DNA of 38,058 nt, taken from positions 1-38,058 of the forward strand of contig JAKAIL010000004.1 of assembly GCA_021825235.1 (NCBI GenBank). The letters are read 5' to 3'. The stretch comes from Bacteroidota bacterium (GTDB lineage Bacteria; Bacteroidota; Ignavibacteria; Palsa-1295). Within the stretch, counting starts at the first letter, position 1. Each line of letters starts with the position of its first letter. Below the pieces are notes generated by a model. It ran no database searches and was not told the DNA's origin. It was given only the letters and a program-made list of their open reading frames with translations. The position numbers and the translations under genes are program-made. This document shows, in pieces, positions 3,222-25,234 of the stretch.

Positions 3222-4214
3222 GTTACCTATTTCGGCTTCGATCGAGCGCAGGATCTGCTCTGCTACCTGCAACGCCTTCAGTCCATCCTCGCCGCTAACG
3301 ACCGGGACCGTATCATTTACGATTGCATCGCGGAATAATTCCAGCTCATATTTCAGGGGATTAAGCTCGGGCACATCGGGTCGCTCATAGATGATTGTCC
3401 GCGGGACATCTCCTTTATCGATTTCGCCGAGCTTCATCGTAAGCCCGGTGTGGAGCGTACCACCGTTGGCGCCCTCATCGGCCAGGCGAAAGATTTCCGC
3501 CGATTTCGTTCCAAAATCGAGCGAAAGGTAGGCGTCCTTCGCGAAGATTCGGAGCTTTCGTAGCGGTGTTTGGGAGATGCGGCTGGCTGTAACGTTCGCT
3601 ACCGCGCCGTTTTCGAATTTAATTCGAGCGTTTGCAATATCCAGTTCTTCGGAAACGACCGCGACACCGGAAGCATCGATGGATTTCACGGGAGATTTTA
3701 CCAGCGAGAGTATGACATCAATATCGTGGATCATAAGGTCCAGCACGACGGCCACGTCCGTTCCGCGCGGCTTGAACTGCGCCATCCGATGCGATTCGAA
3801 AAAGCGCGGATCGTCCAGATACGACTCTGCCGCAAGCAGCGCCGGGTTGAACCGCTCGATATGCCCAACCTGGATCTTCACATCTTGCTCGCGCGCAAGT
3901 TCAATAAGCTTATCGGCTTGTTCCGTCGTTGTCGTGATCGGCTTCTCGATCAGCACATGTTTTCCGGCAAGGATAGCAGCACGAGCGACCTCGAAGTGCG
4001 TTTGGGTTGGGGTTACAATGGAAAGCGCATCTACGCGCTCTAAGAGCGAGACGAGATCGTCCACATTTTCGATCCCCGTTTCATTGGAAACCGCGCTTGA
4101 CTCCGCACCATTGACATCGTAGATCCCTGTGACGCTAACGCCATCGACCTCCTTCCACAGCTTGGCGTGAATTTTTCCTAAATGGCCGATTCCGGCGATA
4201 CCAATACGAATCAT
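3216..4214 (-). CDS. Gfo/Idh/MocA family NAD(P)-dependent oxidoreductase
   Basis: 332 residues. The N-terminal Rossmann fold shows the dinucleotide loop GIAGIGHLGKIH. The family motif EKPITTT follows at about residue 94, and a VGHIERFNP segment at about residue 120 marks the start of the catalytic domain. Members oxidise or reduce sugars, inositols or related compounds, or act as UDP-sugar dehydrogenases. It starts 2 bp after the end of gpsA, third in the operon plsY-gpsA-this gene, so a role in envelope sugar or lipid metabolism is plausible. The substrate cannot be read from the sequence. Confidence 0.85.
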   Translation of the reverse strand: MIRIGIAGIGHLGKIHAKLWKEVDGVSVTGIYDVNGAESSAVSNETGIENVDDLVSLLERVDALSIVTPTQTHFEVARAAILAGKHVLIEKPITTTTEQADKLIELAREQDVKIQVGHIERFNPALLAAESYLDDPRFFESHRMAQFKPRGTDVAVVLDLMIHDIDVILSLVKSPVKSIDASGVAVVSEELDIANARIKFENGAVANVTASRISQTPLRKLRIFAKDAYLSLDFGTKSAEIFRLADEGANGGTLHTGLTMKLGEIDKGDVPRTIIYERPDVPELNPLKYELELFRDAIVNDTVPVVSGEDGLKALQVAEQILRSIEAEIGNL

Positions 4215-16102: not shown

Positions 16103-16990
16103 ATGGAGCCGTTACCACCCGTAAAAGAAGTAGAGTACCGCTGTTATATCAGCAAGATTTTCGAGGAACTTTCCGGAAGCGAATACATGACGTTCGCCTT
16201 CGAAACCGCGAAGGAATTCTCGAGCTTCCGGTATGAGATTGCCGTCCGCTACCGGATTCAGCCGGGGCTGCTCGAATTCAAAGTGCTCGGTATGACAGCC
16301 ACGCGCACGATGATGCCGGCCTATGGGACGGCCCGGTCCGTCTTGAAAATTCCGGTGCTCCCCTTAGGGGTCTATGCCGTTAAAATGATCAAAAGCGATG
16401 GCATCGAAAATATTTTTTCGATCGAAGTGTCCAAGCGCGGGTTCCAGATTTTACAGCCCATACCGCGCAAACGCTTTATCGATCTCATTATCGAAACGAA
16501 GGCGGCTGCACCTGGCGCACGACATACGTCCACGGTTTCCAAAGCACCACCGGCACCGCTTGTCCCACGGACTATCCAAAAACGGCAGGTAACCGAGATT
16601 ACTCCGGAAGAACAAGCAATACTGGACTCACTCAAGCCGGAAACGCCGGAAGAACGCGAAGCCCGCGAAGAACGCGAGGCATTCGGTACCGTGTCGCGCT
16701 CCAGCGCAAAACGTGCCATTGCGGAGGTGGAAGAAGTTCCCATGAATGAGAAGCACTCAGATAAGCACGCCGCGAAGCCTCCGAAAGATGCACCGAAACC
16801 TACTAAACTCGCGGTGAAACAAGTCGAACACAAGCCGGCCAAAGCGGAAAAGAAAACGGCACCGAAAACGAAGCCGGCGACGAAAATGCATGCCACCGCT
16901 AAGAAAGCTCCAACGAAAAAAGCGGTAGCAAAACCAATACCCAAAGCCAAAGCGAAACCGGCTCCAAAGAAACACGCAAAGAAAAAGTAA
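16103..16990 (+). CDS. Protein with unknown N-terminal domain and Lys/Ala/Pro-rich histone-like tail
   Basis: 295 residues. Residues 1-130 form a compact beta-rich domain I do not recognise (YRCYISKIFEELSGSEYMTFAFETAKEF...). A charged linker (TPEEREAREEREAF) at about 190-205 follows. Then come about 75 residues almost entirely of K, A, P and T, with repeats such as KKAPTKKAVAKP and PKAKAKPAPKKHAKKK. The tail resembles eukaryotic H1 tails and bacterial Hc1/AlgP-type nucleoid proteins, so nucleic acid binding is an inference. It lies between hisS and a cupin gene with only 3 bp to the latter, probably one operon. Confidence 0.65.
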   Translation: MEPLPPVKEVEYRCYISKIFEELSGSEYMTFAFETAKEFSSFRYEIAVRYRIQPGLLEFKVLGMTATRTMMPAYGTARSVLKIPVLPLGVYAVKMIKSDGIENIFSIEVSKRGFQILQPIPRKRFIDLIIETKAAAPGARHTSTVSKAPPAPLVPRTIQKRQVTEITPEEQAILDSLKPETPEEREAREEREAFGTVSRSSAKRAIAEVEEVPMNEKHSDKHAAKPPKDAPKPTKLAVKQVEHKPAKAEKKTAPKTKPATKMHATAKKAPTKKAVAKPIPKAKAKPAPKKHAKKK

Positions 16991-16993
16991 GCG

Positions 16994-17365
16994 ATGAGTT
17001 CCGAACGACTGCCCTACGATCTCCATTTGGATGTAAAGTTCGCGCCACTCGAAACGATTGACCTGAACGAGATTGTGGCCGCGAATAAGCCATGGTTCAA
17101 TCAGACACTGTCCAAAATCAACGGAAGCGTGCGGCGCGTGGGTATTGTGGAAGGCGAGTTCCACTGGCACAAGCACGAGGAGGACGACGAGCTATTCTTC
17201 GTCCTCTCCGGCAAGCTCTTCGTCGATACCGAGCGTGGTAATTACGAGATGGGACCGAACCAGGGAGTAACCGTTCCCAAGGGCGTCCTCCACCGCACCC
17301 GCGCACTGGAAAAGACCGTGATGCTGATGGTCGAGAACGCCGGGATTCAGCCGGCGGGGGATTAA
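16994..17365 (+). CDS. Single-domain cupin, metal-binding
   Basis: 123 residues. Cupin motif 1 is GEFHWHKHEEDDELFFVLSG (metal ligands His57/His59/His61 region and the downstream acidic residue). Motif 2 is GPNQGVTVPKGVLHRTRA (His100). The N-terminal 50 residues form the strand and helix typical of small cupins of unknown substrate, often sugar- or small-molecule-related. From residue 56 on, the gene has a second truncated copy at 19964-20168. It is convergent with the T9SS gene at 17367, with only 1 bp between stops. Confidence 0.88.
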   Translation: MSSERLPYDLHLDVKFAPLETIDLNEIVAANKPWFNQTLSKINGSVRRVGIVEGEFHWHKHEEDDELFFVLSGKLFVDTERGNYEMGPNQGVTVPKGVLHRTRALEKTVMLMVENAGIQPAGD

Positions 17366-17366
17366 C

Positions 17367-18740
17367 TTACTCTCCAACCAGAATCACTCGTCCTGCTGGG
17401 ATCATCACTCCATCCTTCTCCAGCATGATTATATAGACTCCACGCGGAAGGCGGGAGACATTGAGCGTGAGCATCCCCGCGGCCGATGTTTTGGCCCGTA
17501 GTACCTCACGGCCCAGTATATCAAGAAGATATACGGTACTTGCTGGGGCTGCGCCAGCTATCTCAAGAAATAAAAAAGCTGGATTTGGGTAGAACTGCAA
17601 GGCATTCGAACTCGGAAAAGCAGAACCAACAGATAGCGATAGATTGCGTCCGACGATAAGCGATGAGTTAAATCCATCGTTAAAGCTGAGGATTAGATTA
17701 CCAGAGTGGCTAAAGCCCACACCGCTATTCCCGGCATCTAAGAAACCCGAATCATTGCAAATCAGGGAATCGGGACTCCATGTTTCGCCACCATTCGTAC
17801 TCAGGAGAACTTGATTAAGAAGATTCCCGGACGCAACAATCGTGTCACGTTCGATACTGGAGAGATAATAGATCATACCCGAGTGCCACATCGAACCGGA
17901 ATCATCGTATACCGTCCTCCATTCCTTGCCACCATCAGCGCTCATGGAGATGTAAGGCGCCGGCAAATGTGCGGTATGATGCACTCCGAACGCGAAAATG
18001 GTCTCACCCAATCCAAAACTGCATCCGCGAAATCCATATTGTGCAGCATTGCTCGGATCCGCAATTACCCAATCGGAATCGATCGTTTTCCAATTATCTT
18101 TCGTCGCATAAAGGATTCCGGTCCCTATTACGAAAACTCGGTACATTCCATTTCCATCTGCATGACATCTCCACGCATAACTGCGCGTAAAAGGCACTGG
18201 AGTCCATTGGGAACCTCCATCCGTGGTTACATAAGTGCCGTGCGTGGTATCTGCTGCGACAAAGATGCCATTCAGCGAATCGGAAAAGCTGATGTCTTCA
18301 ATCGAGTGTGTGGTCGGAACCGGCAGGACGGACCAGGTCGCACCGTTGTCCGTGCTGCGGACAAGTAACCCCGAATCACCAGCCGCCATGATGTCGGACG
18401 AGTCAATTTGGTCGATCGCATTGACCATTGGTTCGTGGCTCCAGGTAGGACCTGGAAGACCTTGCGTTTCAACACTCCAAGATCTGCCTCCATCTCGCGT
18501 AACAAGAAACGCAAGGTAATAACCCGGCTGCCCTGTAAGAGACTCGGCAGTTGCAGCGACAATCACATTATTTCCTCGGCAGGAAAGTGTAGTGTACCAA
18601 TAGTCGCCATACGTCGGCGTTCCTTGTCCAAGAGTCCCATTTTCAGCAACATGACAAACGAACTGCGCTCGCGCGGGCAGAGCTATGGCTGCCCACGCGA
18701 GAAAATGAAACAGCAAGTACTTGAATAATAACTTTATCAT
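17367..18740 (-). CDS. Secreted BNR/YCF48-like repeat protein with T9SS sorting domain (copy A)
   Basis: 457 residues from the ATG at 18740. A signal peptide ends at ALPARAQ. Sialidase/YCF48-like repeats follow, each with a (S/T)xDGGxxW box: VTRDGGRSW, STDNGATW, TTDGGSQW, SADGGKEW, STNGGETW. The last 80 residues are a T9SS domain (LQFYPNPAFL ... VYLLDILGREV ... LPRGVYIIMLEKDG). It is predicted to be secreted and possibly cell-surface attached. The start overlaps the stop of the upstream Cys-rich gene as ATGA, so the pair is co-translated. The paralog is at 20171-21550. In one 100-residue N-terminal stretch I counted 66 identities. Confidence 0.85.
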   Translation of the reverse strand: MIKLLFKYLLFHFLAWAAIALPARAQFVCHVAENGTLGQGTPTYGDYWYTTLSCRGNNVIVAATAESLTGQPGYYLAFLVTRDGGRSWSVETQGLPGPTWSHEPMVNAIDQIDSSDIMAAGDSGLLVRSTDNGATWSVLPVPTTHSIEDISFSDSLNGIFVAADTTHGTYVTTDGGSQWTPVPFTRSYAWRCHADGNGMYRVFVIGTGILYATKDNWKTIDSDWVIADPSNAAQYGFRGCSFGLGETIFAFGVHHTAHLPAPYISMSADGGKEWRTVYDDSGSMWHSGMIYYLSSIERDTIVASGNLLNQVLLSTNGGETWSPDSLICNDSGFLDAGNSGVGFSHSGNLILSFNDGFNSSLIVGRNLSLSVGSAFPSSNALQFYPNPAFLFLEIAGAAPASTVYLLDILGREVLRAKTSAAGMLTLNVSRLPRGVYIIMLEKDGVMIPAGRVILVGE

Positions 18741-19426
18741 TTTAAGGTGCCACACGGCGCGACGTCATAGCATGTATTGGGCTGCCATTGGTCGGGGTTC
18801 GGCAACGGAGTACATGAGCCGTCATCGCTTCCCGAATAAGTGCAGGTCGTGGTATAGGTGCCGTCCGCGTTTTGGCAAACCTGGCAATTAGCTCTGCAAT
18901 TGCCAGCAGTGCCACAAGATTGGTAAGCGGGATACCATTTCCCATCGGTCCATAGGAAGGGAACATCTTCCCAGCAATCCGGAGCTATGTTTACGACATA
19001 AGTTGTACCATTGGTGCAAGGACCAACGGTGGTACCATTTCCTATTGTCTCGAGCTGCTGATAAAGGAGCTTAATCACTTGGTCGGGTGGTAAGTTCGAA
19101 CAATCGGATCCGGGAACTGGGGTCACTGACTCGAGAAAAGTCGCCCAAAAAAAGCCAAAAACTGGATCCGAACCCTCTCGTGAACAATAGATATAAGTGA
19201 CATAGCAGTTAGTTCCAGTCAGCTGAATTGTTTTCGAATAAGGGCCTACCCAATTACCTACCCATGGATCTTGACCGGGGGGAGCTGGATCATTCGGTGG
19301 GCATTGCGCCAGGGAGATCATCGGTAATGTGCCAAGTGTAAGTACTGTCAGGAACGTTAGGAGTCCAAAAATACGTATTAACCTATTGCGATAGGTTGCG
19401 AACCGTTTTGTATTAAGATGTGCCAT
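18737..19426 (-). CDS. Cys-rich secreted protein of unknown function (copy A)
   Basis: 229 residues from the ATG at 19426; an in-frame TTG at 19459 would add 11. A basic leader (MAHLNTKRFATYR) precedes a hydrophobic segment ending ISLAQC, so it is exported either by signal peptidase or as a lipoprotein-like form. The mature part has 14 cysteines spread along it, several as CxxC (NCRANCQVC), plus Pro- and Gly-rich linkers, so multiple disulfides are likely. I do not recognise the family. It is the first gene of a pair with the T9SS protein and is repeated as copy B at 21547-22242 with the same leader. Confidence 0.75.
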   Translation of the reverse strand: MAHLNTKRFATYRNRLIRIFGLLTFLTVLTLGTLPMISLAQCPPNDPAPPGQDPWVGNWVGPYSKTIQLTGTNCYVTYIYCSREGSDPVFGFFWATFLESVTPVPGSDCSNLPPDQVIKLLYQQLETIGNGTTVGPCTNGTTYVVNIAPDCWEDVPFLWTDGKWYPAYQSCGTAGNCRANCQVCQNADGTYTTTCTYSGSDDGSCTPLPNPDQWQPNTCYDVAPCGTLK

Positions 19427-19514
19427 GGCTTTTAGAATGAAATGAGCACGTTTTGACAAGCGGCGCTGAGTATGAGCACCTCACTGCACATGCTCAGCAC
19501 GCGCCTGTCGTTTC
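19389..19514. repeat. 126-bp identical leader block, copy A
   Basis: This stretch is identical base for base to 22205-22330. It covers the 5' leader of the Cys-rich gene and its first 12 codons. After one mismatch another 10 identical bases follow. Sequence on both sides diverges strongly between the two units. Confidence 0.85.
19465..19498 (-). promoter_or_regulatory. Conserved 10-bp-stem hairpin in the Cys-rich gene leader (also 22281-22314)
   Basis: GCTGAGTATG pairs with CATGCTCAGC (one G-T wobble) around a 14-base loop, 38 bp upstream of the ATG. It is identical in both units. There is no T-run after it, so it is not a usual terminator. An mRNA-leader or protein-binding role is possible. 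Confidence 0.45.
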
Positions 19515-19715
19515 GGTTGATTAATAGATCCGCTTCAACGTTCTTCGAAAGCGGGGTGGGCTGGATGCTAAATTAATAGAGCTGGCTCCAAAAGCAGCAG
19601 GAAGTCCAGAGCGCTACTCGATTTTATCGAAGCACTGGAGTGAACGGCTTCTCATTCGCTAAAATTTCCATTAGCAAAAAAAAAAAATCGGCTTCCAATA
19701 GAAAACTTAATATTC

Positions 19716-19961
19716 CTAATACACCCTCACGCTCAACTCCTTAAGCTGCCCGCGAATAATATTGAGACCAATTGTCAGCTCGTCGCGCGTGATATTAAGC
19801 GGCGGCCGGAACCGGATGGAGCGGTCGCCGGCGCCAATGAGTATCAGCCCTTCATCGTAGCATTTTTGCTTGAGGAGATCGCGCATCCGGGCTTCGGCGA
19901 GATCGAAGGCACACATAAGCCCGCGTCCGCGTGCTTCGAAAACGAGCGTTGGGAACTCGGA
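19716..19961 (-). pseudogene. 3' fragment of a lysine 6-transaminase gene (lat remnant)
   Basis: 82 codons equal to the C-terminus of the intact lat at 22525-23976 (SEFPTLVFEARGRGLMCAFDLAEA ... NIIRGQLKELSVR). The fragment lacks the PLP lysine and most of the fold, so it cannot be active. In it 12 codons differ from lat, 10 of them synonymous. Nearly all differences fall in the last 27 codons, while the 55 codons before them carry only one. It marks the right end of duplication unit A. Confidence 0.85.
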
Positions 19962-20168
19962 TTCCACTGGCACAAGCACGAGGAGGACGACGAGCTGTTC
20001 TTCGTACTATCCGGCAAACTGTTCGTCGATACAGAGCGCGGCAATTTCGAGCTGGGCCCGAACCAGGGCGTAACGGTGCCGAAAGGCGTCCTGCACCGCA
20101 CCCGCGCGCCGGAGAAGACGGTGGTGCTCATGGTCGAAAATGCGGGTATTCAGCTAGAGGGGAATTGA
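19866..20168 (+). pseudogene. Chimeric cupin fragment with a new N-terminus
   Basis: A 100-codon frame. Codons 1-32 are the antisense of the lat fragment. From 19962 on it is the cupin from residue 56 to the stop (FHWHKHEEDDELFFVLSG ... VPKGVLHRTR). Both cupin metal motifs remain, but the N-terminal strands are replaced. Against the intact cupin I counted 23 synonymous and 7 amino-acid-changing codon differences in 67 codons. That is an unusual bias for a dead fragment. It could be a remnant or a new functional fusion. Confidence 0.6.
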
Positions 20169-20170
20169 AG

Positions 20171-21550
20171 CTATTCCGATGTTAATATAATTTTTCCGAG
20201 CGGGAGCATCGTATTGCCATGCTCCATTATCGCCACATAAACTCCGCGCGGAAGGCTGGAAACATTGAGTGTGAGCGCGCCAGAGGATGGAACTTTACCA
20301 TTCAGTACCTCTCGTCCGAGAATATCGAACAAATGTATCGTGTTGCCACCAAAGGCATTTGTTAGGGTTAGTGAAGTTGTGGCCGGGTTTGGAAATAGCT
20401 TCGCATACAAGTAGAGTCCAATGTTTGAAGAAACTCCCGCCACTTCATGCTGGCCGATGATTAACGCGGGTGCCAGTGCCAATGAACTAGAAAGAGTATA
20501 AGCGCCAAGTAACTCTCCTTCGGAATTTAACCCGATTCCCCAATTGCCACCCGCTCCCGGATAGTTCGAATCGTGAAAGATCAAGGTATCATACCGCCAT
20601 GTTTCGCCGTTATCCGAACTCCAAAGGACAATGTTGGGAAAGCTCCCGCCTACCCCGGCAATGATCGTATCTCGATTTATGTCAGAGAGAGCAGAAACCC
20701 AACCGGAGCGGAAGAAGGAACTGGTATCGTCATATACGGAGACCCACCGCTTGCCACCGTCTGTTGTCCGTGCAATGCAAGGGTATGGATTACCCCTCAA
20801 ACTATACCGATTCCCGTATGCCAGCATCGTATCACCCCCGCCGAAACTACACGAGGCATATACATACTGCGGCGCCGGGCTATCGCTGATAATGGGCCCG
20901 GTCGAATCGATCGTATTCCAACCATCTTTCGTCGTGTAAACGATGCCGGAGCCATAGGTAAAGATTCGGTACATTCCATTGCCGTAATCGTGGCATTGCC
21001 AGCCATAATCGCGAGTGAAAGGGGCCATCCTCCAATCCGCGCCGCCATTGGTGGTAATGTAGGTTCCGTGAGCGGTATCCGCTGCGACGAGGATGCCATG
21101 CATCGGATCGGAAAAGCTGATTCCTTCGATAATATGATTCGTCGGGCTAGTTAACACCTGCCAGCTTGCTCCCGCGTCGGTGGTTCGCACGAGCAGATCC
21201 GAATCGCCAAATGCGATGATATTTAACGAGTCGATTTGGTCAATGGTGGTAATGATCGGCCGATGGTCCCAAGTCGGGGCAGGCAGCCCTTGATTCCCCG
21301 AGCTCCATGAATGCCCACCATCCCTGGAAACGAAAAAAGCGAGGTAATAGCCACCGAGTGTATCGACGTCCGATGCAGCTATGGCATTATTCCCCTTACA
21401 GGATAACGCTGTGTACCAGTAAGAGCCAGAACTCTGACCAAAGTTAGCGCTATCCGTAATGTTACATATCCACTGCGCCTGCGCGGGTGACACCAAAGTC
21501 ACCCACGCGACGCAGAAAATAGGGATAAATAAGTTGCGCATGACGGTCAT
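20171..21550 (-). CDS. Secreted BNR/YCF48-like repeat protein with T9SS sorting domain (copy B)
   Basis: 459 residues from the ATG at 21550, chosen because it overlaps the upstream stop as ATGA exactly as in copy A; an in-frame ATG at 21565 is possible. The signal peptide ends at SPAQAQ. The (S/T)xDGGxxW boxes are SRDGGHSW, TTDAGASW, TTNGGADW, TTDGGKRW and SSDNGETW. The C-terminal T9SS domain is LYAKLFPNPATTSLTL ... IHLFDILGREVL ... LPRGVYVAIMEHG. Conserved positions (YWYT.LSC.GNN, IDQIDS, NGMYR) show the same fold as copy A, but surface loops differ widely. Confidence 0.85.
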   Translation of the reverse strand: MTVMRNLFIPIFCVAWVTLVSPAQAQWICNITDSANFGQSSGSYWYTALSCKGNNAIAASDVDTLGGYYLAFFVSRDGGHSWSSGNQGLPAPTWDHRPIITTIDQIDSLNIIAFGDSDLLVRTTDAGASWQVLTSPTNHIIEGISFSDPMHGILVAADTAHGTYITTNGGADWRMAPFTRDYGWQCHDYGNGMYRIFTYGSGIVYTTKDGWNTIDSTGPIISDSPAPQYVYASCSFGGGDTMLAYGNRYSLRGNPYPCIARTTDGGKRWVSVYDDTSSFFRSGWVSALSDINRDTIIAGVGGSFPNIVLWSSDNGETWRYDTLIFHDSNYPGAGGNWGIGLNSEGELLGAYTLSSSLALAPALIIGQHEVAGVSSNIGLYLYAKLFPNPATTSLTLTNAFGGNTIHLFDILGREVLNGKVPSSGALTLNVSSLPRGVYVAIMEHGNTMLPLGKIILTSE

Positions 21551-22242
21551 CTGTTTACTTCGCATGGCACTACATCATAGCACGTTCCCACGACCCACAC
21601 ATCGGGCGTCGGCAGCGGATTGCAAGTCCCATCATCATGGCTGGTGGATGTACACGTCGTACTCCACGACCCGTCTGGGTTTTTGCAATATTTGCAATCC
21701 ATCTCACAATAATCGTTTGCATCGCCACAGGCAACATAGGAAGTATCGCCATTGTTAACTTGCTCTTCCCAGCAGTCATTGGCGTATGTGACAACATAAG
21801 TAAAACCATCGGTGCATGGAGGTGGCCCACCTAAGCCTATACCACCACTACCAATCGTCTCTAACTTTTGCAAGAGAAGCTTAATCATTTGATCGGGTGT
21901 AAGCCCATCACATGCCACACATCCGGGCACTGGTGAAATCGACGCTATGGCTATGGAAGTATATGAGGGGGGCCAACCCGTAAGGTCTATATAGCAAGTC
22001 CGTGAACAATAGGTGTATGTCACCTGACAACCTCCGGGCAAAGTTACCGGTCCAGCAGAACCAGGCCCAGTCCAGGGATCACAGCTAATTGTTGGTGGCG
22101 ACCACGTATTCGCAGGGCACTGAGCCTTGCTGACCCCCGGCAGCGTGGCAATCGTAGCGAAAGTAAGGAACATTAAAAGACCAAACGAGTGTATAAACGC
22201 ACTTCGATAGGTTGCGAACCGTTTTGTATTAAGATGTGCCAT
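21547..22242 (-). CDS. Cys-rich secreted protein of unknown function (copy B)
   Basis: 231 residues from the ATG at 22242. The first 12 codons are identical in DNA to copy A, and the leader peptide MAHLNTKRFATYR is the same. The export signal ends VSKAQC. The mature part has 17 cysteines, three more than copy A. Shared landmarks are LTPDQMIKLLLQKLETIG, DCWEE, CKYCKNPDGSWSTTC and TCYDVVPC. Elsewhere the sequence and loop lengths differ. It is paired by an ATGA overlap with the downstream T9SS gene. Family unknown. Confidence 0.75.
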   Translation of the reverse strand: MAHLNTKRFATYRSAFIHSFGLLMFLTFATIATLPGVSKAQCPANTWSPPTISCDPWTGPGSAGPVTLPGGCQVTYTYCSRTCYIDLTGWPPSYTSIAIASISPVPGCVACDGLTPDQMIKLLLQKLETIGSGGIGLGGPPPCTDGFTYVVTYANDCWEEQVNNGDTSYVACGDANDYCEMDCKYCKNPDGSWSTTCTSTSHDDGTCNPLPTPDVWVVGTCYDVVPCEVNR

Positions 22243-22330
22243 GGCTTTTAGAATGAAATGAGCACGTTTTGACAAGCGGCGCTGAGTATGAGCACCTCAC
22301 TGCACATGCTCAGCACGCGCCTGTCGTTTC
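22205..22330. repeat. 126-bp identical leader block, copy B
   Basis: This is the identical partner of 19389-19514. It includes the hairpin at 22281-22314 and the first 12 codons of the Cys-rich gene. Confidence 0.85.
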
Positions 22331-22467
22331 AGTTGATTAATTGGCTTCAAGTATTTTGAGGCCAGAGAGGGCTTGAGGATGGGTCGGAGAACTATCTCCG
22401 AAAGCCACGAGAAGTCCAAAGAGAACTCAAATTGATTCGAAGTTGTCAAGTGAACAGCTTCTAATTT

Positions 22468-22497
22468 GCTAAAATTTCTTTTAGCAAAAAAAAAAAA
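22468..22497. repeat. Hairpin beside a 12-A run downstream of lat, also at 19658-19687
   Basis: GCTAAAATTTCTTTTAGC is a 7-bp-stem hairpin next to A12 (plus strand). In unit A it is GCTAAAATTTCCATTAGC with a 5-bp stem and the same A12. On the lat strand the T-run comes before the stem, so it is not a standard terminator. It may mark the 3' end of lat mRNA in another way. Confidence 0.35.
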
Positions 22498-22524
22498 TCG
22501 CTTTCCAGGAGCAACAATAACGTT

Positions 22525-23976
22525 TTAGTATCCCCTCACGCTCAGTTCCTTTAGCTGGCCGCGAATGATATTGAGACCAATCGTCAGCTCGTCGCGCGTA
22601 ATGTTGAGCGGCGGCCGGAACCGGATGGAGCGGTCGCCGGCGCCAATGAGTATCAGCCCTTCATCGTAGCATTTTTGCTTGAGGAGATCGCGCATCTGGG
22701 CTTCGGCGAGATCGAAGGCACACATAAGCCCGCGTCCGCGTGCTTCGAAAACGAGCGTTGGGAACTCGGATTGTAGTTTCTCCAATTCCGAAAGCAAATA
22801 TTCGCCCCGCACGCGCGCATTTTCGACCATTCCTTCTTCCTCGATAATTTCGAGATAGCGTTTGAAGCGGAGCATGTCAACCAGGTTCCCGCCGAAGGTG
22901 GAATTGATGCGGCTGGACTTCTGGAATACATTCTCTTTTACTTCGTCCACCCGTTTGGATGCAAGAATACCGCAGACCTGCGTTTTTTTGCCAAAGCTCA
23001 TCACGTCCGGCTGAACGAAATGCTGGTGCGCCCACATCTTTCCTGTTAGTCCAACCCCCGTCTGTACTTCATCGAGGATGAGCATGGCCTCATTTTCATC
23101 GGCCAGCTCGCGGAGCGTGAGGAAAAATTCCCGGCTAAAATGATGGTCGCCGCCCTCCGCCTGAATGGGCTCGATAATAATCGCTGCAATATCATCCGGA
23201 TTATTGATAAATGCTTCCTTCATTTGCTGCACGGCCGCCGCCTCTTCCTTCTTCGAGCGCTCGATGTTTTCCGGAGTGCGCGGAAAATGGAGATATGGCG
23301 AGTCGATGCGCGGCCAGTCCTTGAATTTTGGGTAGTACAGCGTTTTGTTCGGATCCGTGTTCGTAAGCGACATCGTATAACCGGAACGGCCATGAAAGGC
23401 GTAACGGAAGTGCATGATAAGCTTTCCACGTTCGGCCGTGTAACCGCGCGTGAAATTCTTGCGGACTTTCCAATCGAACGCAGTCTTAATCGCATTCTCC
23501 ACCGCCAGCGCTCCACCTTCGATGAGGAAAAGGTGCGGCAAATAATCCGGCATCGCAATCCGCGCGAAGGTTTCGATAAACTCCGCCATTTCCACCGTAT
23601 AGGCATCGGAACTCGACGGTTTGTTTATGGCCGCTCGTGTGAGCGATCCCATAAACCCTGGCTCGAACATTTTCGGATGATTGAGTCCGATAGGAGAGGA
23701 ACCAAAAAACGTAAAGAAATCGAGATACCGTTTGCTGCTGCGCGCATCCTCGATCCAGGAACCTTTCGATTTCTGAAGATCGACAACCAGGTCCAGCCCA
23801 TCGGCAAGGATATGTCGCTCCAGGCTCTCATGCACTTTGGCAGGAGCTATGTGGATAGGCTCGAATTTTGGCTTCGCTGGAGCTTTCGAAACAGCGTCAT
23901 GCCCATTCGTCTTGTGACCATTGGTGGGCAGGATAGCTTGTGCCTTTTCGTCGGCTGTTATTCGGGAGTTTGTCAT
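22525..23976 (-). CDS. lat: L-lysine 6-transaminase
   Basis: 483 residues, class-III PLP aminotransferase. The N-terminal 35 residues are a low-complexity tail (Lys/Thr/Asn/Ala). The family then shows IHIAPAKVHESLERHILADGLDLVVDLQKSKGSW, LFLIEGGALAVENAIKTAFDWK, LILDEVQTGVGLTGKMWAHQHF and the PLP-lysine region SFGKKTQVCGILAS. These match L-lysine epsilon-aminotransferase, which converts lysine to alpha-aminoadipate semialdehyde for catabolism or osmolyte and antibiotic precursors. It is the intact parent of the fragment at 19716-19961. It is divergent from ispE across a repeat-rich spacer. Confidence 0.92.
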   Translation of the reverse strand: MTNSRITADEKAQAILPTNGHKTNGHDAVSKAPAKPKFEPIHIAPAKVHESLERHILADGLDLVVDLQKSKGSWIEDARSSKRYLDFFTFFGSSPIGLNHPKMFEPGFMGSLTRAAINKPSSSDAYTVEMAEFIETFARIAMPDYLPHLFLIEGGALAVENAIKTAFDWKVRKNFTRGYTAERGKLIMHFRYAFHGRSGYTMSLTNTDPNKTLYYPKFKDWPRIDSPYLHFPRTPENIERSKKEEAAAVQQMKEAFINNPDDIAAIIIEPIQAEGGDHHFSREFFLTLRELADENEAMLILDEVQTGVGLTGKMWAHQHFVQPDVMSFGKKTQVCGILASKRVDEVKENVFQKSSRINSTFGGNLVDMLRFKRYLEIIEEEGMVENARVRGEYLLSELEKLQSEFPTLVFEARGRGLMCAFDLAEAQMRDLLKQKCYDEGLILIGAGDRSIRFRPPLNITRDELTIGLNIIRGQLKELSVRGY

Positions 23977-24033
23977 GATTATACCTCGGATTATTGAACA
24001 AACTTTGTACCCCGAATCGTTTTGAACCGGGAT

Positions 24034-24059
24034 TACGCGAATTGGATGGATTTTCTGGA
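24034..24059. repeat. Left arm of a 26-bp perfect inverted repeat
   Basis: The 26 bases at 24034-24059 (core GCGAATTGGATGGATTTTCT) are the exact reverse complement of 24331-24356. The two arms enclose the MITE-like element and the start of ispE. Confidence 0.85.
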
Positions 24060-24097
24060 CACTATCATAGTAAATAAATGCACTATCAAAAGCATAT

Positions 24098-24244
24098 TTA
24101 AGGAAACTCTGATTAAGTCTGGATTCCCGTTTTCGCGGGAATGACAGAATTTGAAATCATGGCGCAACGCGCACAAATCGACACATTCCTGTCATTCCCG
24201 CGAAGGCGGGAATCCAGATTCAGACTTGTTCCAAGTTTCCTTAA
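24098..24244. mobile_element. MITE-like nested inverted repeat (147 bp)
   Basis: The ends are TTAAGGAAACT and AGTTTCCTTAA, perfect 11-bp terminal inverted repeats. Inside, each arm carries a REP-like palindrome of the type GGATTCCCG-n-CGCGGGAAT (24120-24143 and 24194-24215). The arms are long imperfect inverted copies of one another. There is no open frame for a transposase. The structure fits a non-autonomous palindromic element. It ends 9 bp before the ispE ATG, so it must form the leader of that gene. Confidence 0.65.
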
Positions 24245-24253
24245 TAGAGCGCG

Positions 24254-25234
24254 ATGGATATTTTAAGTATTAAGAAACCGAAATCGGAGGAATTTTCCGA
24301 AAGTGAATTTTCTGAAAGTGGCAATAGTAATCCAGAAAATCCATCCAATTCGCGTACTCCAAGTTCTGCTTCGGCTAAAATCAATCTTGGCCTCGAGGTG
24401 CTCTACGAACGGCCGGATGGTTACCATGAACTTTCCACGCTATTTCTGCGCGTCGACGAGCCGCACGATATTATTTCGATTTCCGCCGGCGAAGCATTCC
24501 AGCTCACCTGTTCCGATCCATCGCTCCCCACGGACGATCGGAACCTCATGATGCGTACTGCGCGCGAATTCGAACGAATGACCGGCGAGGCGTTACCACC
24601 GCTCCACGTCCACCTCGAAAAAAGGATTCCCATGGGCGCGGGATTGGGCGGCGGTTCCAGCGATGCCGCTATGATGCTCACAATATTGCTGGAACATCGA
24701 AAGAACTCCACCCCCCAACCCCCTCCTCTTTCAGAGGAGGGAGAGTTTATGCTTGCTGCTAAAATCGGCGCGGATGTACCATTTTTTTATTCTGGGGTGC
24801 ATGCTGCTGCAGCGACCGGCATTGGAGAAAAGTTAACACCAATTGACGTTCACATTCCGGGGAGCATTCTGATCGTGGCCGATCCTACCATCCATGTTTC
24901 GACGAAAGAGGCCTACGCTTCGCTTTCGCCATCGGTTAAATCGCCCAGCGTGGACTACACGAAGTTTTTCCAGACTCCACCACAACTCAAGACCTGGAAA
25001 GAAGACTTGAATAACGATTTCGAGCCGGGAATTTTTCGGCGTTTTCCACACCTTGCGGAAATTAAACACGCACTCTATGCCCGCGGCGCGGACTTCGCGC
25101 TGATGAGTGGATCAGGCTCTGCGCTTTATGGCATATTTAGGGATGCAAATACAGCCCAAGAGGCGAAGCAGTCATTCGAATCGGAAAGATTGCTTACTTT
25201 TTTGAATATGGGTCATTCTGTATCGAAAAAATAG
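24254..25234 (+). CDS. ispE: 4-diphosphocytidyl-2-C-methyl-D-erythritol kinase
   Basis: 326 residues. The GHMP-kinase ATP loop is IPMGAGLGGGSSDAAMML at about residue 130. The substrate motif SAKINLGLEVLYERPDGYHEL normally starts the protein but here begins near residue 39. The first 38 residues (Ser/Glu/Asn/Pro-rich) are an extension, part of it encoded by the inverted-repeat arm 24331-24356. A second insertion-like stretch, STPQPPPLSEEGE, precedes AAKIGADVPFF. The enzyme phosphorylates CDP-ME, the step after ispD (7149-7868). No Shine-Dalgarno is evident. Confidence 0.92.
   Translation: MDILSIKKPKSEEFSESEFSESGNSNPENPSNSRTPSSASAKINLGLEVLYERPDGYHELSTLFLRVDEPHDIISISAGEAFQLTCSDPSLPTDDRNLMMRTAREFERMTGEALPPLHVHLEKRIPMGAGLGGGSSDAAMMLTILLEHRKNSTPQPPPLSEEGEFMLAAKIGADVPFFYSGVHAAAATGIGEKLTPIDVHIPGSILIVADPTIHVSTKEAYASLSPSVKSPSVDYTKFFQTPPQLKTWKEDLNNDFEPGIFRRFPHLAEIKHALYARGADFALMSGSGSALYGIFRDANTAQEAKQSFESERLLTFLNMGHSVSKK
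24331..24356. repeat. Right arm of the 26-bp inverted repeat, inside ispE
   Basis: It matches 24034-24059 as a perfect reverse complement and encodes part of the Pro/Ser-rich N-terminal extension of IspE. Confidence 0.85.
24721..24741. repeat. Palindromic repeat-like insertion within ispE
   Basis: CCCTCCTCT-ttc-AGAGGAGGG is a perfect 9-bp-stem hairpin, preceded by a C-rich tract (ACCCCCCAACCCC). It encodes the QPPPLSEEGE stretch, which has no counterpart in typical IspE proteins. This suggests that a small REP-like unit has been absorbed in frame. Confidence 0.55.

Follow-up and report, generated by a model that had tools for sequence, protein, structure and literature searches.

The locus raises the question of how two neighbouring pairs of genes for secreted proteins can share an identical leader while their mature products have diverged strongly, and whether such pairs form a two-gene secreted module with a fixed leader and a variable payload, as the original prediction proposed. 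The window analysed here was the whole stretch of 38,058 nucleotides (contig JAKAIL010000004.1) from a genome of the class Ignavibacteria.

Organization of the Tandem Region

Along the forward strand, the gene order was cupin, BNR1, CR1, leader, joined aminotransferase/cupin fragments, BNR2, CR2, leader and complete aminotransferase. The left flank was a cupin-like gene (16994..17365, + strand), the 3′ part of which was repeated at ~19952-20166. BNR1 (17367..18755, - strand; likely start ATG 18740) encoded a predicted T9SS-tailed beta-propeller with YCF48/Sortilin-like Asp-box repeats and a Por_Secre_tail. CR1 (18737..19426, - strand) encoded a Cys-rich protein with 14 Cys, predicted to be Sec-exported, whose signal peptide ended in SLA before QC; its stop overlapped the start of BNR1 in the sequence ATGA, and its ORF was readable back to a TTG at 19459. 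The 126-bp identical block occurred first at 19389..19514 (- strand), where it comprised the hairpin, the start region and the first CR1 codons.

Between the two pairs, an aminotransferase 3′ fragment (19717..19963, - strand; 95% identical to 22526-22772) met a cupin 3′ fragment (19952..20166, + strand; 84% identical to 17149-17363) at a junction at ~19952-19963. The second unit consisted of BNR2 (20171..21565, - strand; likely start ATG 21550), another T9SS-tailed beta-propeller, and CR2 (21547..22242, - strand), a Cys-rich Sec-exported protein with 17 Cys, a signal peptide ending in SKA before QC and the same ATGA overlap with BNR2. The second copy of the block was located at 22205..22330 (- strand), and a complete lysine-aminotransferase-like gene (22525..23976, - strand) formed the right flank. 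The block was enclosed in a tandem unit of ~2.8 kb, which the original prediction had overlooked and the ends of which were fragments of the neighbouring cupin and lysine-aminotransferase-like genes.

Two further features were observed. The fusion of the aminotransferase and cupin fragments gave a 100-aa ORF (19866-20168) that kept the cupin core with a pN/pS of ~0.12 and may still be expressed. Nested inverted repeats at 24024-24366, upstream of an ispE-like gene (24098-24244 self-inverted at 71%; 24024-24059/24331-24366 at 92%), looked like a small repeat element.

Divergence of the Two Units

The two copies of the block showed 0 differences over 126 bp, and this identity, which had been predicted, was exact and not extendable on either side. 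The proteins behind it had diverged as claimed. The Cys-rich proteins were 75% identical over the N-terminus and signal peptide and 48% identical in the mature part, and their cysteine counts were indeed 14 and 17. The BNR proteins were 49% identical overall, with 67 identities in the best 100-column stretch (66 of 100 had been claimed).

The divergence between units 1 and 2 was distributed unequally: the aminotransferase fragment had a pS of 0.18 and a pN of 0.011 over 81 codons, the cupin fragment a pS of 0.52 and a pN of 0.06 over 71 codons, the Cys-rich genes a pS of 0.70 and a pN of 0.35, and the BNR genes a pS of 0.77 and a pN of 0.34. The payload pS was saturated, so that with a pN of 0.34-0.35 no dN/dS ratio was reliable for positive selection. 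Because selection on the proteins alone cannot make the synonymous sites of the middle look older than those of the ends, the unit, judged from these substitution patterns, must be a mosaic and not one drifted tandem duplication, formed either by recombination of diverged alleles or by conversion of its ends.

The flanking fragments had pN/pS values of about 0.06-0.12, i.e., they showed purifying selection, though they were apparently truncated. Such low values suggest that the fragments diverged as parts of intact genes, and therefore that two diverged alleles were joined, which is favoured over duplication in place. Conversion of the unit ends is a possible alternative source of part of the mosaic. 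As the leader lies in a segmental tandem repeat, its identity here is as much a product of recent recombination or conversion as of a dedicated fixed leader; it was much less well conserved at the other locus of this genome, on contig C192.

The same architecture recurred at an independent tandem locus in a genome of the same genus (G001 C10), where the flank fragments had pS values of 0.18-0.22, the payload had a pS of about 0.78 and 50% amino acid identity, and the BNR tails had a pS of 0.38. At a locus of another family (G338, L118 2893-11949), three Cys-rich/propeller pairs stood in tandem, with the last propeller cut off by the locus end; the upstream and signal-peptide blocks were repeated in this array and the T9SS tails were 88% identical. 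Adjacent BNR genes with common tails (pS 0.29) were also found in genome G003.

These loci bear on a rival explanation, a plain ancient tandem duplication in which the leader and flanks stayed alike by functional constraint or gene conversion, with no foreign alleles and no biological role for variability. It would account for the two pairs of the window being mutual nearest relatives in both trees, for the peaking of identity in blocks, as from conversion, and for the common T9SS tails of adjacent copies elsewhere. However, the synonymous divergence of payload and fragments was too unequal for a single age, the truncated-looking fragments had pN/pS values as if they had evolved intact in separate genomes, and the congener had reached the same architecture independently. 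We regard a plain duplication as rather unlikely.

The Leader Element

The leader was ~180 nt long with three predicted hairpins and ended at the ATG of the Cys-rich gene (unit 1, ~184 nt, 19424..19607; unit 2, ~178 nt, 22240..22417; both - strand). The main hairpin was a 55-nt imperfect palindrome (19455..19509 and 22271..22325, - strand). A hairpin had been proposed from the sequence, and it proved stable: the folding energy was -42.7 kcal/mol over 131 nt (z -3.8), equalled by 0 of 200 shuffles, against a background of 12 of 400 random window segments with local folds of -35 kcal/mol or lower. In a hairpin model of four sequences, 96% of the cells were paired and three pairs had changed on both sides. 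The covariation beat every slid version of the alignment, but 66 of 500 column shuffles were as good, which makes it a weak signal from four sequences. Selection on the hairpin structure is plausible from this alignment, and the leader probably represents a structured 5′ UTR. No Rfam match was obtained over 16900-24300 up to an E-value of 1, and the Bacteroidota-type promoter motif (TANNTTTG) was not found in the leaders.

The leader occurred four times in the genome, twice in the window and twice on contig C192 (73-79% identical to the window copies), in each case before a different payload, and was not confined to one copy per genome. BLASTN over 60 relatives matched it in its own genome only. 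A leader model built without the congener copy found a place just upstream of a Cys-rich gene in G001 (contig C2; E 0.009), and the model that included this copy found the same place again (E 1e-14). Over 12 other genomes, the leader model matched before a Cys-rich gene in one only, and many Cys-rich genes had no leader.

Other matches of the hairpin model (G004 C11, G004 C33, G000 C129 and G003 C36) were other inverted repeats, coding sequence or too weak, and none of the three examined preceded a Cys-rich gene. Two inverted repeats were noted separately. A 54-bp near-perfect one (GGATGAGTAATCATCTTGAGATGAGC...; L009 588-641) lay upstream of the second C192 leader and was missing from the other leaders; a dispersed one (GTAGGGACGTGCTGTGCACGTCC...; L146 4842-4918 and L127 ~3758-3924) lay before unrelated genes in the same-genus genome G004 and is a separate repeat family.

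The 4573-bp contig C192 contained two Cys-rich genes with a common leader and signal peptide (about 80% identity), and the homology between them ended about three codons after the predicted cleavage site between A and Q. The first of these genes was followed by a BNR/T9SS gene, and its mature part (L009 2336-2779) matched no other member by HMM; among 149 genomes, it found only itself and one weak match, in G003 C24, which lay in an unrelated frame and was rejected. Two further Cys-rich genes of this genome were located on contigs C33 and C181. A dedicated cassette exchange might be envisaged, in which whole Cys-rich/propeller payloads are swapped and stacked between fixed recombination ends, formed on the 5′ side by the structured leader and signal-peptide start and on the 3′ side by the T9SS tail or a flanking gene. 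We give this only a small chance; if true, it would mean a population-variable repertoire for self-recognition or adhesion on the cell surface.

The Cys-Rich Proteins and Their Propellers

Members of the Cys-rich family that were scanned (CR1, CR2 and relatives) had a signal peptide and no T9SS tail, as no C-terminal T9SS sorting domain matched above the Pfam or NCBIfam cut-off. The cleavage predicted before Gln in both proteins fits the Q-rule of Bacteroidetes (PMC5837995). The profile and structure comparison that had been suggested for the Cys-rich protein returned no relatives in Pfam, NCBIfam or PDB. The AlphaFold2 model of CR2 was mainly beta (pLDDT 72, pTM 0.69; the other four models had pLDDT 51-58), and Foldseek gave no significant match with it. 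Given the moderate confidence of the model and the lack of matches, no biochemical function was indicated. Similarity to RNase K6/7 sequences was seen only at E > 0.02 and was judged to be chance.

Both BNR proteins carried the signals of T9SS cargo. BNR1 and BNR2 matched Por_Secre_tail (PF18962) at 31.1 and 37.1 bits (cut-off 27) and the sorting domain TIGR04183 at 34 and 32 bits (cut-off 23), and they also matched Asp-box propeller families, PF15902 in part only. The genome encoded the secretion machinery, with SprA above the cut-off, and at least 150 Por_Secre_tail matches. The AlphaFold2 model of BNR2 (pLDDT 74) matched 5ojr_B in Foldseek (E 3e-12, prob 1.00), although the TM-scores of the top matches by query length were only about 0.3-0.5. 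As YCF48 in 8am5 and the dispase-autolysis-inducing protein (DAIP, 5fzp) were among the best fits, BNR2 is, according to this model, a propeller nearest YCF48 and DAIP.

Pairing and Divergence in Related Genomes

A Cys-rich profile was built from nine proteins and searched in the genomes of the class. Of the 391 genomes, at least 35 contained members, a lower bound because scoring was limited to the top 8 candidates of each genome. The pairing was conserved: 52 Cys-rich ORFs had 1.2 kb or more of downstream sequence, and a T9SS/BNR ORF lay within 250 nt downstream of 45 of them, compared with 7 of 132 control ORFs at the same loci, and several of the unpaired Cys-rich ORFs were ORF fragments or Cys-rich/Cys-rich tandems. 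Because the tail model used in this count had been derived from the partners, the independent support comes from a Pfam scan of ten partners, in which those with a weak or missing Asp-box signal could still have a Reg_prop propeller (L107) or a Por_Secre_tail. For profile scans of public genomes, the full Cys-rich and BNR alignments offered no conserved stretch; a scan with a smaller BNR alignment found four loci, in MAGs of uncultured Ignavibacteriae or Bacteroidota. The two-gene organization therefore recurred in the genome and the class, as proposed, but the ATGA overlap, claimed to be invariable, held for both pairs of the window and gave way elsewhere to spacings from overlap to about +200 nt.

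Among 22 pairs, the nearest relative in another genome was at most 51% identical for the BNR protein and at most 49% for the Cys-rich protein. The same-genus identities of the comparison genes were 78-82% for the aminotransferase, 71-83% for the cupin and 65-69% for a HisS-like gene, so the pairs were more diverged between species of one genus than these genes and did not appear to evolve at the ordinary genome rate. Two pairs of loci shared neighbour genes, with payload identities of 24-35% between them: in G000 C181, the pair had the opposite orientation to the one in G001 C10, whereas two shared genes had the pair on one side in G003 C6 and on the other in G001 C3. None of the intervals and genes examined in G006, G001 and G005 showed an orthologous site left empty between the cupin and aminotransferase genes. 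In G006 (L156 1892-11810), this interval held three other large T9SS genes, two of them with BNR matches, so that T9SS cargo may have a hot-spot here. The cupin of G001 and that of G005 were located elsewhere.

The distances of the Cys-rich and BNR proteins were correlated (Mantel r 0.66, reached in 0 of 5000 permutations), with similar groupings in the two trees. This co-divergence is expected from linkage alone and is no proof of contact. It would also follow if the Cys-rich protein helped its own propeller to fold, as a periplasmic chaperone or partner, and its variation only mirrored that of the propeller, a role compatible with allele exchange and with a protein that has a signal peptide, lacks the T9SS tail, is encoded upstream and often overlaps its partner at the stop and start. 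On the other hand, many T9SS proteins of this genome have no such partner, the genome containing only a handful of Cys-rich genes beside its many tails, and some arrays (L116 and L119) have two Cys-rich genes ahead of one propeller. We consider the chaperone role possible, though we lean against it.

Proposed Origin and Role of the Pairs

The explanation that we prefer, with somewhat better than even confidence, is that the two proteins of a pair are exported together as a surface complex and that allele exchange through recombination has diversified it. Each unit would produce one surface module, in which a T9SS-anchored propeller and a Sec-exported Cys-rich partner are most likely subunits of one complex. 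The complex might bind a ligand that varies and that could be a glycan or a protein, carried by a substrate or by other cells. The window would then contain two old, diverged alleles of the module, stacked in tandem by recombination through conserved neighbours. These would be the flanking genes, the structured leader together with the start of the signal peptide and, at other loci, the T9SS tail. We infer that these alleles were imported from other lineages, rather than that their ends were converted in place. The original prediction as a whole was partly supported.

As far as our literature searches reach, the Cys-rich/T9SS propeller pair is undescribed, in line with what had been supposed. 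Its Cys-rich members would represent a widespread family of exported proteins that are small, rich in disulfides and linked to T9SS propellers, and the saturated payload between near-identical ends, found at independent loci, offers a genetic signature of recombination-driven surface-protein diversification in an uncultured lineage. Testable questions are thereby raised about variable surface repertoires and about T9SS cargo that needs a dedicated Sec-exported partner.

Comparison with Known Systems

The BNR proteins resemble T9SS type A sorting-domain BNR/YCF48-like proteins (TIGR04183/PF18962 plus PF14870/PF15902/PF02012) in their signal peptide, Asp-box propeller and C-terminal Por_Secre_tail; they differ in that the propeller here has a Cys-rich gene upstream as its partner and varies with it as a unit. 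With YCF48 itself, BNR2 appears from its model to have only the fold in common, and a role in photosystem II assembly would not be expected in this organism. Sortilin/SorLA Vps10p proteins likewise combine an Asp-box propeller with a disulfide-rich partner, but the Cys-rich part here is a protein of its own, encoded upstream, and has no detectable relation to them; no 10CC module was found by Pfam C-terminal to the BNR propeller, where the T9SS tail lies instead.

Displaced effector-immunity arrays are known from the T6SS of V. cholerae and from CDI orphan modules. By analogy with their tandem diverged two-gene alleles, conserved ends and truncated leftovers, the pairs might be a polymorphic competition module, with a secreted effector and its partner or neutraliser, whose old and new alleles are stacked; the low identity between congeners would agree with this. 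However, the export signals on both proteins leave no cytoplasmic immunity protein visible, no toxin family was matched in Pfam or NCBIfam, the export system is a different one, and propellers such as the second protein usually serve as binding scaffolds. A competition module therefore seems hardly probable.

Conotoxins combine a conserved signal peptide and precursor start with a variable Cys-rich mature part (PMC11860864). The Cys-rich proteins described here share the conserved precursor start and the strongly diverged mature part, and they differ in being bacterial, about 200 aa long and partnered by a T9SS propeller; the diversity of their mature parts appears to be old and recombined.
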